Below, in pieces: positions 1 through 5,133 of a stretch of 5,505 nucleotides of DNA. The stretch is from Candidatus Zhuqueibacterota bacterium (GTDB lineage Bacteria > SM23-31), in assembly GCA_022562855.1 (NCBI GenBank), contig JADFON010000157.1, forward strand, positions 1 to 5,505, read 5' to 3'. Position 1 is the stretch's first letter. Each line of letters opens with the position of its first letter. The notes below the pieces were generated by a model. The model was not told where the DNA came from and did not search any database. It saw only the letters and a program-made list of their open reading frames with translations. A program made the translations under genes and the position numbers.

Positions 1-462
1 CACGGCGGGAAGCCGCTTTTTCAATACCGACCCTGTCCAATTTGTACCGTGTCCGATTTGACTGTCGAAATTTTCCGGTATTATACCGGTTATGGCTCGT
101 AAACGGTCCGCTATCTCCGGATCCGAAGTCTGCAACATCACTTTTTTGGCGGATGTATGCTTGATTTTTATATCCGCAGCGCTCTTTTTAACGGTAAATG
201 ACGCATAGCGCAGTACCGCAGATTTCATACCCTTTACAAGTCTTTCGAATATTATTTCTATTTCAGCGGTCCGGCCAACGGTTAACCGGTTCAAACAGAA
301 TGAATACAACCGCTGCCGCCCGTTTGCCCGTACGTATACGTGTCCGTTGTTTTTTATCAGTGACCGCAGGTTTTTTCCGATTATCTTTGTGTTATTCTCC
401 CGGCATCCTTTCAGGATGTTAAAATACTGCTCCGGGATATATGAAGTGTTGTCGGGTAACAT
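1..462 (-). CDS. Hypothetical basic protein, 5' part only (runs off the left edge)
   Basis: An open frame of 154 codons runs without a stop from an ATG at 462-460 to base 1, so the C-terminus lies outside the window. The frame is closed upstream by TAA at about 565-567, and the ATG at 462 is the first ATG, GTG or TTG after it. The product begins MLPDNTSYIPEQ. It has about 26 Lys/Arg against 12 Asp/Glu, no signal peptide and no membrane segment. I do not recognise a family. The basic character would suit a nucleic-acid-binding protein, but this is a weak inference. Codon choice (many CGG, AAA, ATA, CCG and GAA codons) resembles the neighbouring dnaE. No Shine-Dalgarno is visible before the ATG, whereas an extended -10 sits about 13 nt upstream, so a near-leaderless message is possible. 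It has the same orientation as dnaE but is separated by 248 bp with its own promoter, so it is probably a separate transcription unit. Confidence 0.72.
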   Translation of the reverse strand, partial: MLPDNTSYIPEQYFNILKGCRENNTKIIGKNLRSLIKNNGHVYVRANGRQRLYSFCLNRLTVGRTAEIEIIFERLVKGMKSAVLRYASFTVKKSAADIKIKHTSAKKVMLQTSDPEIADRLRAITGIIPENFDSQIGHGTNWTGSVLKKRLPAV

Positions 463-710: not shown

Positions 711-3700
711 CTACGCAGCTCCCGTATCGAAGAACATATCGTCTTCGAGGTCTTTTTCGAAGATGTGAGCGTCGGATTTACGCATGTTTTTCTTCCGGAT
801 CATCTGCACCGATTCGGCAATGATATTTGTCTCACCGGGAACACGGGATTGGACCTTCCCCTTGATGCGGAACGGACCGTATCCCTTAAAAATTGTGCCG
901 TATTTGTCGTAAATATCCGGGAACAGCACAACCTCCATCAGCCCGAATTTATCTTCGAGTGTGGCGAATTTGATGTACCTGCCGTCTTTTGTCGGTGCGC
1001 GTCTTGAGGTGACCATCCAACCGGCGACGACAACCGGCATTCCCCCGCATTCTTTCAGTTTTGTCGAAATCGTTATCGACGGGTCGAATTCGATTTCCGG
1101 AAACAGGCTTAACGGATGAGCAGACACCGCAAACTGCAATGTCTCCAATTCGGCTATAACCCGCTGTGCAAGCGTAAACGGGGGCATCGAGAGGTCCTGC
1201 GTCAGACGGCGGGCGACATGCGATTTCCTGTTGTTGCGGAAATATACCCTGATAAGGGTGAGAGTTTCCGGTTCGTTTGCGCAAAGCGATCTGAGAGAGC
1301 CCGATTTTGCCAGGTTGACCGCCTCTTTCTCGTTTACTCCCGACCGGTTGAGAAAGTCAAACACATCCCGGAACGGTTCGTCTTTCCGCTCGGCAACTAT
1401 GTTTTCGATACTCCGGCGTGTAAGACCGTAAACCGGAAACAAACCGGAAACAATTACCTTACCGGCGTTCGTAAAATAACGCTCAGCTTTGTTTACATCC
1501 GGCGGCTCGATACGGATACCCATGCGTCGCGCTTCCTCCACATAAGCGCACAATGAGTAAAACCCGCCGCCGTTGTTCATCACCGCGGTCATAAACCGGA
1601 CAGGATAGTGTTTCTTGAGATAAGCCGACTGGTAGGCAAGAATTCCGTAGGTCGCACTGTGCGCTTTGTTAAAGCCGTATCCAACGAAATTCACGAGAAA
1701 CTGCCAGATCTCCTTCGCAGAACTTTCTTTTATACCGTTTTTTTCCGCTCCGGTTATGAATTTTTTCCGGACCGGTTCCACCGTTTCCAGTTTCCGGGCT
1801 TTTGTCATCGCACGCCGGAGTAAATCCGCCTCTCCGTATGAAAAACCCGCTACAACGCGCGCTATCCTGAGCACTTGCTCCTGGTAAACGACCACACCGT
1901 ATGTTTCTTTTAGTATCGGTTCAAGAACCGGGTGCAGGTAAACGGTCTTTTCCACGCCTGCCCTGCGGCGTATAAACGCGTCTTTCATGCCTCCTTCGGC
2001 AGGTCCCGGACGAATTATGGCAACTGCATCGATGATATCCTTCAAGGTGTATACCTGCATTTTCCTGAGCAGACCGCGCATCGCGGGACTCTCAAGCTGA
2101 AAACAGCCGACCGTTTCTCCTTCCATTATCATCCGCATCGTGCCCGGATCGTCTTCGGGAATCGAGTTCAAGAACTCCTGTTTTGCAGTTTTGGTAGTTT
2201 TCTCTGTGTCTTTCACACACGGGGAATGACGGGCGTCTTTCACCGCTTCAGCCGTATCTGAAATAACGCTCAGACCGCGTACACCCAGAATATCCATCTT
2301 GACCAGTCCCAGTTTCTCTATCGACTTCATGTCGTGCTGCGAGATAATAAGCCCTTTATTCGACTTCTCGAGAGCCGTGTAGTGGGTGATTTCGTCCGGC
2401 GCTATCACTACTCCACCCGAATGTACCGAAAGATGGCGGGGAAATCCCGATATTTTCCGGCTGACGCTGAGTATCTTCTTGTGCATTGTTCCCCCGAGCG
2501 CCCGGGAGTAATCCCGGCATTCGGGTATGTTTTTAATGGCATTTTCAAAGTAACTCACCGGACGGTGCGGCAGGCTTTTTGTCAGTTTTCTGACTTCGTC
2601 TTCGGGCATCCCCATTGCCTTTCCCACATCGCCGACCGCAGAACGAAGCTGAAACGTGTTAAATGTACAGATCATCGCCATCTTGTCATTGCCGTATTTA
2701 GTATACAGGTAATCGAGGACAATGTCGCGCCGTTTCCAGCAAATGTCGATGTCGATGTCGGGCGGTTCACCCCGTTCCGGATTCAAGAACCGCTCAAAGT
2801 AAAGATCGAACCGGATTGGGTCGGCGTGTGTGATCCCGAGTACGTATGAGACAAGACTGTCCGCCGCAGAACCCCTGCCGACACACGGTATCTCTTTTAA
2901 TATGCAGAAGTCAACGATGTCCTTTGCAATGAGAAAATACCCGGAAAAACCTTTGCCGTGGATAATACCAAGCTCATAATTCAGACGCTTGACGGCTTCC
3001 TTTCCCGGTGGGTGATACCTCCTTTGCAGACCCTTGAATGCCGCTTTCCTGAGCGCAGTATAGCTGCTCTCGCCTTTCGGCAGGTCTAACTTTGGAAACA
3101 CGGGGGTTCCAAGCGTATATGAAAAACGGCACTTACCGGCAATCTCATGCGTATTTTTTACCGCCTCCGGGTACCGCTTGAAGAGTTTTATCATCTCTTT
3201 TGCGGGAGCTAAGTACTGCCTGTCGGATATTTCTCCATTCACGCGGCTGACCGTGGTACGCGTGCCTATTGCGCGGAGATACGTCCGGATATGGACATCG
3301 GACGATTCGATCATAAAAACGTCATTTGCCGCGACCAGGGGAACCCTTGTAACTTGTGAAAGATCGGCAAGCCTGTAATTCAGGAGTGCATCATCATCCC
3401 CATGATACGTCATCTCGATATAAAAATCGCTTCCGAACGTCTCGCGGTAGAGCCTGCAAAGCCGGACGGCGTCGCTTGTTTTTCTCCTGTTTGCAAGCAT
3501 GGAGATACTCCCCCGTTTGCCTCCCGAGAGGAGTATCAATCCCTTTTTGCAGTTAAACAGGTCGGCGTTTGTACAAATGAACCGCCCGTGACCTTCGCGG
3601 AGGTGGACCGTGGAAAGAAGTCTGCACAGGTTCCGGTAACCTTCGCTGTTCTTGACCAGCAGAACCACCACACCGCCGTCCTTCATCGAAATTTCAGCCC

Positions 3701-3896
3701 CTATCAGCGGTTTGACGCCCTTCTGCTTTGCCTTTTCATAAAATTCCACTGTTCCGCTGATCGTGTTGCAGTCGGTAAGAGCAAGCGCGGGCATCCCGTA
3801 CCACGCTGCCCGTTCAACGAGATCGTCGATCGTTGCAGTCCCGTTCAACAGTGAGAAATTACTGTGACAGTGAAGGTGTATGAAGGATGTAGCCAT
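711..3896 (-). CDS. dnaE: DnaE-family DNA polymerase III alpha subunit, short error-prone DnaE2/ImuC-like
   Basis: This is a C-family DNA polymerase of 1061 aa. Replicative DnaE1 is usually about 1160 aa, so the length fits DnaE2/ImuC enzymes, which lack the C-terminal tau-binding domain. Domains in order: PHP (about 1-210, HLHCH at 7-11); polymerase palm with PDIDID at 379-384 (catalytic D382, D384) and KMDILG at 533-538 (catalytic D535); VGRGSAADS at 339-347; fingers with YQEQV (671-675), RRAMTKAR (694-701) and GFNKAHSATYG (741-751); helix-hairpin-helix around 836-872; OB fold about 953-1032. All three polymerase aspartates are present. The PHP domain is degenerate: TDH is TDC (C43), the Asp of motif I is N18, the usual SGC is SGG, and NDxH is NDVF (F194). 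A poor clamp-motif candidate (QDLSM, 900-904) lies before the HPL segment. The start is fixed by the PHP motif at residue 7. The gene overlaps dinB by 38 nt. The likely role is extension past lesions with the upstream Y-family polymerase; calling it error-prone is inference from length and context. Confidence 0.95.
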   Translation of the reverse strand: MATSFIHLHCHSNFSLLNGTATIDDLVERAAWYGMPALALTDCNTISGTVEFYEKAKQKGVKPLIGAEISMKDGGVVVLLVKNSEGYRNLCRLLSTVHLREGHGRFICTNADLFNCKKGLILLSGGKRGSISMLANRRKTSDAVRLCRLYRETFGSDFYIEMTYHGDDDALLNYRLADLSQVTRVPLVAANDVFMIESSDVHIRTYLRAIGTRTTVSRVNGEISDRQYLAPAKEMIKLFKRYPEAVKNTHEIAGKCRFSYTLGTPVFPKLDLPKGESSYTALRKAAFKGLQRRYHPPGKEAVKRLNYELGIIHGKGFSGYFLIAKDIVDFCILKEIPCVGRGSAADSLVSYVLGITHADPIRFDLYFERFLNPERGEPPDIDIDICWKRRDIVLDYLYTKYGNDKMAMICTFNTFQLRSAVGDVGKAMGMPEDEVRKLTKSLPHRPVSYFENAIKNIPECRDYSRALGGTMHKKILSVSRKISGFPRHLSVHSGGVVIAPDEITHYTALEKSNKGLIISQHDMKSIEKLGLVKMDILGVRGLSVISDTAEAVKDARHSPCVKDTEKTTKTAKQEFLNSIPEDDPGTMRMIMEGETVGCFQLESPAMRGLLRKMQVYTLKDIIDAVAIIRPGPAEGGMKDAFIRRRAGVEKTVYLHPVLEPILKETYGVVVYQEQVLRIARVVAGFSYGEADLLRRAMTKARKLETVEPVRKKFITGAEKNGIKESSAKEIWQFLVNFVGYGFNKAHSATYGILAYQSAYLKKHYPVRFMTAVMNNGGGFYSLCAYVEEARRMGIRIEPPDVNKAERYFTNAGKVIVSGLFPVYGLTRRSIENIVAERKDEPFRDVFDFLNRSGVNEKEAVNLAKSGSLRSLCANEPETLTLIRVYFRNNRKSHVARRLTQDLSMPPFTLAQRVIAELETLQFAVSAHPLSLFPEIEFDPSITISTKLKECGGMPVVVAGWMVTSRRAPTKDGRYIKFATLEDKFGLMEVVLFPDIYDKYGTIFKGYGPFRIKGKVQSRVPGETNIIAESVQMIRKKNMRKSDAHIFEKDLEDDMFFDTGAA

Positions 3897-5076
3897 GTTT
3901 TTCCATCCGGTAATAATTTTTTAATACCAGGGTGCTGCCGGGTGCAATGGTTGAAAACCCAAACCGGCGGCGCACATCATCGATGGTGCGGCAAAGCTGC
4001 TCGCTGTTCTCAAATCTGTCCAGCACCGAAAGCTGCCCCGAGTACTCGGAGTCAATATTCATGACTTTCACACCGACAAGCTTTACCCGTATACGCCTGT
4101 GCGGAAAGCCGTCGTATATCTGCTGAACGCGCCGTGCAATAACAGCGCCCTCGCACGTTGGCTGCCGGAGCGACGAGGACCGACGGGCAGACCTGCTGTC
4201 GGAATAGCAGACTTTTACATGCACCTGACGGGCTGACCAGAATTCTTTCCTCAGTTTATCTGCGATCCGTTCGGAGAGATAGCGCAGTGTTCCGGTAACC
4301 AGCTTCTCATCGTTTGTGTCTTCCTCAAACGAAGTTTCACGGCTGATCTGATGCGCAATCCGGCGCGCATGTACCGGTCTCATGTCGTGTCCGTGCGCGT
4401 ACTGCCAGATTGTCTCCCCGGCAGCGCTGCCGAGAAGCTGCATAACCGTATATCTCGGCAGGGTTGTGATCTGCCCGATAGTCGTGATGCCGAGATCAAA
4501 AAACACCTGCTCGGTTTTTCTGCCGATTCCCCGCAGCATACGCAGGGGCAGACCTGACAGGAATGTCCGCTCCATACCGTGCGGCACACTGGTGATGCCG
4601 GAAGGTTTGTTCAGACCGGAAGCTATCCTTGCCACGAGTTTTGACGATGCGACTCCTATGGAGACGGGAATATTGACCCGCTCACGGATGCTGCGCGCGA
4701 TATTGATACATGTCTCGACCGGGAAACGCCGGCGCTCCATTACATTCGTCAGGTCGACATATGCGTCGTCGAGTGAAGCTATTTCGACATCCGGCGAGAA
4801 ACTGTGCAAAATATCCTCGATAGCAAGACCGACAGCCCGGTAATGGCGGAAATCGCCCTTGACAAAAAAAGCATCGGGACAAAGCTCTTTTGCTTTGCTC
4901 AGCCCCATTCCTACCGTGACGCCTTTCCGTCTTGCCTCGTAGGATGCGCTGTGTACACACCCCCGTTGATGGGGCAGACCGCCCACAACGACCGGCTTTC
5001 CGACAAGCAGCGGATTGAAGCTTTGCGCCACCGAAGCAAAAAAGGCGTCTCCATCAAGATGGATTATTGTTCGCAT
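3859..5076 (-). CDS. dinB: Y-family DNA polymerase (DinB/Pol IV-like) with Asp in place of the catalytic Glu
   Basis: This 405-aa protein has the full DinB layout: palm and fingers (about 1-165), thumb helix-hairpin-helix GIGRKTEQ (183-190), little finger starting at ISRETSFEED (244-253), and a C-terminal clamp-binding motif QLSVL (348-352). Recognisable active-site residues are D8 (HLDGDAFF), the steric-gate position F13, Y46 and R49 in SYEAR, D103, and K157 in LNKPSG. The third carboxylate, normally Glu in SxDE, is Asp (SLDD, D104), and the usual SVEQ is SVAQ. The protein is therefore neither a standard DinB nor a clearly dead ImuB-type protein, in which several catalytic residues are missing. 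Such enzymes insert nucleotides opposite damaged bases while docked on the sliding clamp. The start ATG at 5076 places D8 exactly where DinB proteins have it; the Shine-Dalgarno is weak (GGA about 5 nt upstream). A strong promoter lies just upstream, and dnaE follows with a 38-nt overlap. Confidence 0.95.
   Translation of the reverse strand: MRTIIHLDGDAFFASVAQSFNPLLVGKPVVVGGLPHQRGCVHSASYEARRKGVTVGMGLSKAKELCPDAFFVKGDFRHYRAVGLAIEDILHSFSPDVEIASLDDAYVDLTNVMERRRFPVETCINIARSIRERVNIPVSIGVASSKLVARIASGLNKPSGITSVPHGMERTFLSGLPLRMLRGIGRKTEQVFFDLGITTIGQITTLPRYTVMQLLGSAAGETIWQYAHGHDMRPVHARRIAHQISRETSFEEDTNDEKLVTGTLRYLSERIADKLRKEFWSARQVHVKVCYSDSRSARRSSSLRQPTCEGAVIARRVQQIYDGFPHRRIRVKLVGVKVMNIDSEYSGQLSVLDRFENSEQLCRTIDDVRRRFGFSTIAPGSTLVLKNYYRMEKHGYILHTPSLSQ
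3903..3908 (-). promoter_or_regulatory. Ribosome-binding site of dnaE, inside dinB
   Basis: GGATGG on the minus strand lies 6 nt before the dnaE ATG at 3896 and within the last codons of dinB. It is a moderate match to AGGAGG and supports this start. With the 38-nt overlap of the genes it predicts translational coupling. Confidence 0.5.
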
Positions 5077-5104: not shown

Positions 5105-5133
5105 AATATACATGTGTTCACTATTTAAGTCAA
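5105..5133 (-). promoter_or_regulatory. Strong sigma70-type promoter of the dinB-dnaE operon
   Basis: On the minus strand -35 TTGACT (5133-5128), an exact 17-nt spacer and -10 TATATT (5110-5105) lie upstream of dinB. Each hexamer matches consensus at five of six positions. The predicted start near 5098 gives a leader of about 20 nt before the ATG at 5076. Confidence 0.7.
5107..5120 (-). promoter_or_regulatory. LexA-like (SOS box) operator within the dinB promoter
   Basis: The minus strand reads TGAACACATGTATA in the spacer, overlapping the -10. Against the Gram-positive LexA/DinR consensus CGAACRNRYGTTYC it keeps GAAC, a fitting RNRY centre (ACAT) and GT, with mismatches at the first base and two bases of the right half. 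The position is ideal for a repressor and the downstream genes are typical SOS targets, but the right half-site is weak and no LexA gene is in the window. Confidence 0.4.

Follow-up and report, generated by a model that had tools for sequence, protein, structure and literature searches.

The window, by which we mean the whole stretch of 5,505 nucleotides analysed here, is contig C163 of a 2.51-Mb MAG in 491 contigs (G000; 79.6% complete, 2.5% contaminated). Its minus strand carries a DinB-like Y-family polymerase gene, polY, and a gene for a short DnaE, dnaE2. Both open reading frames lie where the initial annotation had placed them, the 38-nt overlap that it described is exact, and the strong shared promoter it proposed corresponds to a sigma-70-like element upstream of the pair (Table 1).

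Table 1. Features of the polY-dnaE2 locus, in window coordinates
Feature	Position	Strand	Remarks
Operon promoter, TTGACT-17-TATATT	5105..5133	-	sigma-70-like, 10/12
LexA-box-like element GTGAACACATGTATA, inside the promoter	5107..5121	-	pattern match
polY, DinB-like Y-family polymerase, 405 aa	3859..5076	-	Pfam IMS 143 bits, IMS_C 74 bits
PolY catalytic D103-D104 (Asp-Asp; in DinB Asp-Glu)	4765..4770	-	invariant in alignment A2; D8 also kept
Beta-clamp-binding-like motif QLSVLD	4018..4035	-	alignment, assigned by eye; QRSIFD, QRTLFD in relatives
RecA-NT-like motif EQLCRTIDDVRRRFGFSTIAPGSTL	3928..4002	-	residues 359-383; assigned by eye from the account in PMC6511836
Conserved PolY C-terminal tail YYRMEKHGYILHTPSLSQ	3862..3915	-	occurs whether or not the genes overlap; none of 37 solo DinBs has it
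polY/dnaE2 overlap, 38 nt	3859..3896	-	two frames: PolY ...HGYILHTPSLSQ*, DnaE2 MATSFIHLHCHSN
dnaE2, 1061 aa, without tau-binding C-terminus	711..3896	-	Pfam PHP, DNA_pol3_alpha, finger, HHH_6, OB
DnaE2 PHP motif HLHCHS, inside the overlap	3861..3878	-	invariant in alignment A1
DnaE2 catalytic PDIDIDI	2742..2762	-	no variation at PDID and D384 in alignment A1
DnaE2 third catalytic Asp, D535 in KMDILG	2292..2294	-	invariant in alignment A1

A survey of related genomes recovered the pair, with an identical overlap and protein identities of 46-73%, in four further genomes of the class (G001-G004), so its arrangement is not due to chance; L100 carries it with the same overlap as well. The nearest relatives in the sample are G001 (a match to bacterium SM23_31, LJUD01000141), G002 (JANQEH010000127), G003 (a MAG with the label candidate division KSB1, QNDJ01000059) and G004 (JAUWXV010000270). 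The class sample (G000-G005) consists of incomplete MAGs throughout. In the sixth of these, G005, only the canonical DinB was found, and since this genome is only 70% complete the missing pair is no evidence of absence. Phylum-wide searches around G006 and G106 took in 1 and 7 genomes, respectively.

Just downstream of dnaE2 (positions 1-462, minus strand) lies a 154-aa open reading frame, cut by the contig end and without a Pfam match. A homologue of it (204-aa frame, E ~1e-13) directly follows dnaE2 in G002 (L067 13413-14027), and none was seen downstream of dnaE2 in G001.

DnaE2 and its place among DnaE families

In a tree of 54 DnaEs the window protein fell within a 27-row clade (SH-aLRT 99), together with the DnaE of the Bacteroidetes Emticicia and other PolY-linked DnaE2s, while DnaE1/DnaE3 and the DnaE2A proteins of Agrobacterium and Paraburkholderia were placed on the other side of the tree. 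It is thus a DnaE2 of the DnaE2B clade, as set by its grouping in our own tree and not in the published DnaE2B tree. As the initial annotation had it, the tau-binding C-terminus is missing: the protein ends approximately 60-100 aa before the C-termini of E. coli DnaE and of the genome's own DnaE1. Moreover, no QxxxF-type clamp motif was found in the window DnaE where E. coli DnaE displays QADMF and the own DnaE1 QTNIF. That DnaE1, encoded on a separate contig (C269) and grouping with the DnaE1s of G002 and G003, differs from the window protein in having both the clamp motif and a C-terminal extension, and the window gene is consequently not the only dnaE in its genome. The PDIDIDI motif of DnaE2 corresponds to D401 and D403 of the E. 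coli enzyme, and D535 to its D555.

A different identity of the window DnaE, as a DnaE1 or DnaE3 acting in replication or primer extension, could be argued from its best NCBIfam score, which was obtained with the replicative model PRK05673, below the cut-off of that model, and not with error-prone DnaE. On the strength of the tree, the truncated C-terminus and the separate DnaE1 we reject a replicative role. In addition, the metal positions of the PHP domain have changed from Asp to Asn at 18 and from His to Cys at 43, as compared with the active motif given in PMC12926913. We therefore regard a DnaE1 or DnaE3 identity as extremely improbable. Another contig of the assembly (C292; L079) holds the N-terminal part of a further dnaE, which differs from the C269 DnaE1 where the two overlap. 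It may stem from contamination or be a third dnaE; as a different gene from that on C269, and possibly foreign to the genome, it was rejected as part of the system.

PolY, its C-terminal tail and the gene overlap

The AlphaFold2 model of PolY, built from seven sequences, had a mean pLDDT of 80.8 with a confident core; the C-terminal 60 residues were mostly at ~50 or under, with a helix predicted at 358-371. Residues D8, D10, F13, Y46, R49, D103 and K157 of the core are all invariant in the clade. The sole change among the core residues tested is at position 104, which is Asp and not Glu, so that PolY departs from the Asp, Asp, Glu triad of DinB/Pol IV at its third position. The suggestion in the initial annotation that the Y-family member looks close to active is supported insofar as every core residue tested apart from Glu104 is kept.

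This substitution bears on the possibility that PolY serves as a scaffold with little or no catalytic activity, similar to the iPolY of ImuB, and leaves synthesis to DnaE2. Asp occupies the third metal-ligand position in 13 PolYs, all 13 of them tail-bearing or adjoining a DnaE, and at position 104 in none of the solo DinBs of the sampled set. Such a change might reduce or abolish activity, and related DnaE2B modules with dead PolYs do exist (G045, G050, L146). Dead PolYs, however, lose several of the core residues together, whereas all seven listed above are invariant here, and several tail-bearing PolYs of the same clade keep Asp-Glu. Asp-Asp is moreover a working pair in reverse transcriptases, which we also count against a dead scaffold. 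We consider that reading unlikely, and PolY with its Asp-Asp pair probably retains insertion activity.

In the alignment the PolY core is followed by the clamp-like motif QxxL(F/D) and then by the RecA-NT-like motif, in which D366, R369 and G373 are invariant in the clade. Given the latter motif, RecA is the likely third partner of the two polymerases.

The final 12 codons of polY lie in the DNA that also codes for the metal-binding start of DnaE2. In six species the overlap DNA has a mean pairwise identity of 91%, as compared with 52-59% in the flanking stretches, and encodes PolY HGYILHTPSLSQ* and DnaE2 M(A/D)TSFIHLHCHSN. This is a clear case in which a single DNA stretch encodes two conserved protein motifs, namely the tail peptide and HLHCHS, the PHP motif. 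In nine genomes the overlap measures exactly 38 nt. In G106, G390 and G142, where the overlap is also 38 nt, PolY ends in GF(V/I)LRTPSLTK and DnaE2 starts with M(A/D)SCYVPLHLQSN or MALYFVPLRLRSN.

PolY terminates in the conserved peptide GYILHTPSLSQ. The tail was present without a visible overlap in ten genomes (G065/L101, G351, G222, G081, G372, G244, G391, G202, G214, G073), which rules out that it is a mere by-product of the overlap, and it was found in none of the solo DinBs (0/37). From its retention in these ten relatives it follows that the tail is probably functional. When the tail columns were removed, the 17 tail-bearing PolYs were still set apart by a single branch of the PolY tree; the support of 84 should be taken as suggestive only, and a single origin of the tail is probable.

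The peptide TPSLSQ results when the DNA for the ancient PHP motif HLHCHSN is read in another frame, which makes an origin by overprinting attractive, even though the order of events is not established. According to this scenario the polY frame extended into the start of dnaE2, and the resulting tail came to serve in the docking of a mutasome partner and then outlived the separation of the genes in many lineages. No remnant of dnaE2 coding was visible in the PolY tails of G351, G222 and G081. We put the scenario forward tentatively, as possible but on the whole rather doubtful.

The same three genomes have a close DnaE2 homologue at another locus than PolY, as would be expected if the two genes were independent, with a usual Pol IV and an accessory DnaE having nothing but the transcript in common. 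The constant overlap of exactly 38 nt in nine genomes, a tail restricted to this largely DnaE2-linked PolY clade, and a DnaE2 without an evident clamp motif all argue against independence, which we find quite improbable.

The promoter, ImuA and a second locus with lexA and dinB

The operon promoter is conserved in G001, G003, G004 and L100, and its -35 element is degenerate in G002. The pattern GTGAACANNTGTNNA has a single match in the source assembly (2.5 Mb), located in the window promoter, and its reversed-pattern control gave 0. A LexA-like element is found at the same place of the promoter in G001-G004, and its left half-site only in L100. The window box is a half-degenerate palindrome; a perfect palindrome, TGAACATTTGTTCA, is present inside the promoter upstream of lexA in G005. 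No match to a LexA-type box was seen near the genome's own recA. Taken together, these observations support, but do not prove, LexA control of the operon.

The ImuA model matched only RecA in the source genome, consistent with the initial annotation, which saw no ImuA; an ImuA elsewhere in this genome was rejected, its only candidate match falling inside RecA. Among the six class genomes, RecA was likewise the only match of the model in G000-G004, and G005 gave no match. Only RecA-sized frames matched in the genomes of L100, L101 (a 5.04-Mb chromosome record) and L146. In other sampled genomes, e.g. G033, the same model gives separate, higher-scoring matches distinct from RecA. Only two Y-family proteins of the source MAG (80% complete) exceed the Pfam cut-off, neither of them ImuB-like.

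Another contig of the genome, C173, carries lexA, an SRPBCC-like ORF, an ORF with an 84-aa core and a canonical dinB. The 84-aa family weakly matches DUF6504 (17 bits, below the Pfam threshold of 24.2), on which our literature search found nothing, and is weakly similar to the C-termini of ImuB in a profile comparison (hhalign E 0.008, probability 5%). It adjoins dinB in G002 and G005 and the tail-bearing PolY in G351, G372, G106, G244, G202, G214 and G142, and is also present in the G081 and G222 loci. In several relatives the tail-bearing PolY stands beside both ImuB-C and DnaE2; the gene order in G142 is lexA-imuB-C-polY-dnaE2. From the weak matches and this gene context, together with the Geobacter context described in PMC6511836, the C173 ORF is probably a standalone ImuB-C. 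The description of the locus as a streamlined two-gene system is therefore probably too simple, with RecA as the likely third partner and the probable ImuB-C encoded elsewhere with lexA and a second dinB.

The ORF between lexA and the probable imuB-C (L080 3426-3971, minus strand) is SRPBCC / polyketide-cyclase-like, from a weak Pfam match. In G002, a 117-aa frame on contig C138 (L245 1112-1465, minus strand) lies directly behind a perfect LexA-type box, TTGACAAGTGAACATTTGTTCATTATATT, and is possibly a new SOS gene.

Published mutasomes and a proposed mechanism

Timinskas and Venclovas reported variants that lack ImuA and combine an active or inactive PolY with standalone ImuB-C and/or DnaE2; among them is a Bacteroidetes pair with two apparently active polymerases (PMC6511836). 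In a 2026 survey, DnaE2B is defined together with several modules of RecA and a PolY or iPolY, one of which contains ImuB-C (PMC12926913). Hence the ImuA-less DinB-DnaE2 operon of the initial annotation is supported, but it is not novel: the architecture is already published, both as DnaE2B-PolY-RecA, with an apparently active PolY, and as DnaE2B-PolY-ImuB-C-RecA, and the window pair belongs to this type. In the text consulted from these two papers we found no mention of the TPSL tail, the overlap or the Asp-Asp site, and we make no claim of first description.

The DnaE2B-PolY-RecA module of Bacteroidetes (Cellulophaga algicola) shares with the window a polY next to dnaE2 and a genome with neither ImuA nor ImuB (PMC6511836, PMC12926913). 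Its PolY has a RecA-NT motif, of which the window PolY has a likeness recognised by eye, and its two polymerases are apparently active, as those of the window may also be in spite of Asp104. The Emticicia DnaE belongs to the same tree clade, although the Emticicia PolY has Asp-Glu, the C-terminus NKTPIYR and a 1-nt overlap, as opposed to Asp-Asp, HTPSLSQ and 38 nt in the window clade, and the window genome differs in having a probable ImuB-C. If that protein acts in trans, the composition resembles that described for DnaE2B-PolY-ImuB-C-RecA in Tessaracoccus lapidicaptus (PMC12926913), with imuB-C, polY and dnaE2 together in tail-bearing relatives; in the window genome, by contrast, imuB-C belongs to another operon with lexA and canonical dinB. 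That operon, with its canonical DinB, is of the same kind as the lexA-imuB-C-polY operon of Geobacter sulfurreducens (GeoPolY-like; PMC6511836), and forms a second locus separate from the window pair. With imuA-imuB-dnaE2 (DnaE2A) the window shares an SOS-type promoter element and a Y-family partner upstream of a DnaE2 without tau region; unlike it, the window system has no ImuA, a PolY that is not evidently dead and has no fused ImuB-C domain, and a DnaE of another clade.

We consider it likely that the pair forms a translesion-synthesis operon under LexA (SOS) control, of the DnaE2B-PolY-RecA type known from the literature, to which the putative standalone ImuB-C probably contributes in trans. 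According to this model, DNA damage would activate RecA and inactivate LexA, and the promoter at 5133-5105 would fire. A single mRNA would serve PolY and DnaE2, with dnaE2 translation presumably coupled through the 38-nt overlap. PolY would then organise the mutasome, docking on the beta clamp by its QxxL(F/D) motif, binding RecA in place of ImuA by its RecA-NT motif, and contacting a partner, DnaE2 or ImuB-C, by its tail. DnaE2, having no clear clamp motif or tau region, would rely on PolY to reach the primer end, where it would carry out mutagenic synthesis, both proteins being putatively active as polymerases and ImuB-C acting in trans.

ImuA-less mutasomes are predicted by computation and mostly without experimental test (PMC6511836, PMC12926913), and the pair adds to them a poorly known bacterial group, that of bacterium SM23_31 and the KSB1-labelled MAG. 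The short conserved tail offers a concrete candidate contact for holding PolY, DnaE2 and ImuB-C together. In G006 (L069 3262-4877) a 305-aa ORF and an SRAP-like ORF, identified by eye, lie downstream of the PolY-DnaE pair on the same strand, which suggests a longer damage-response operon in that genome.
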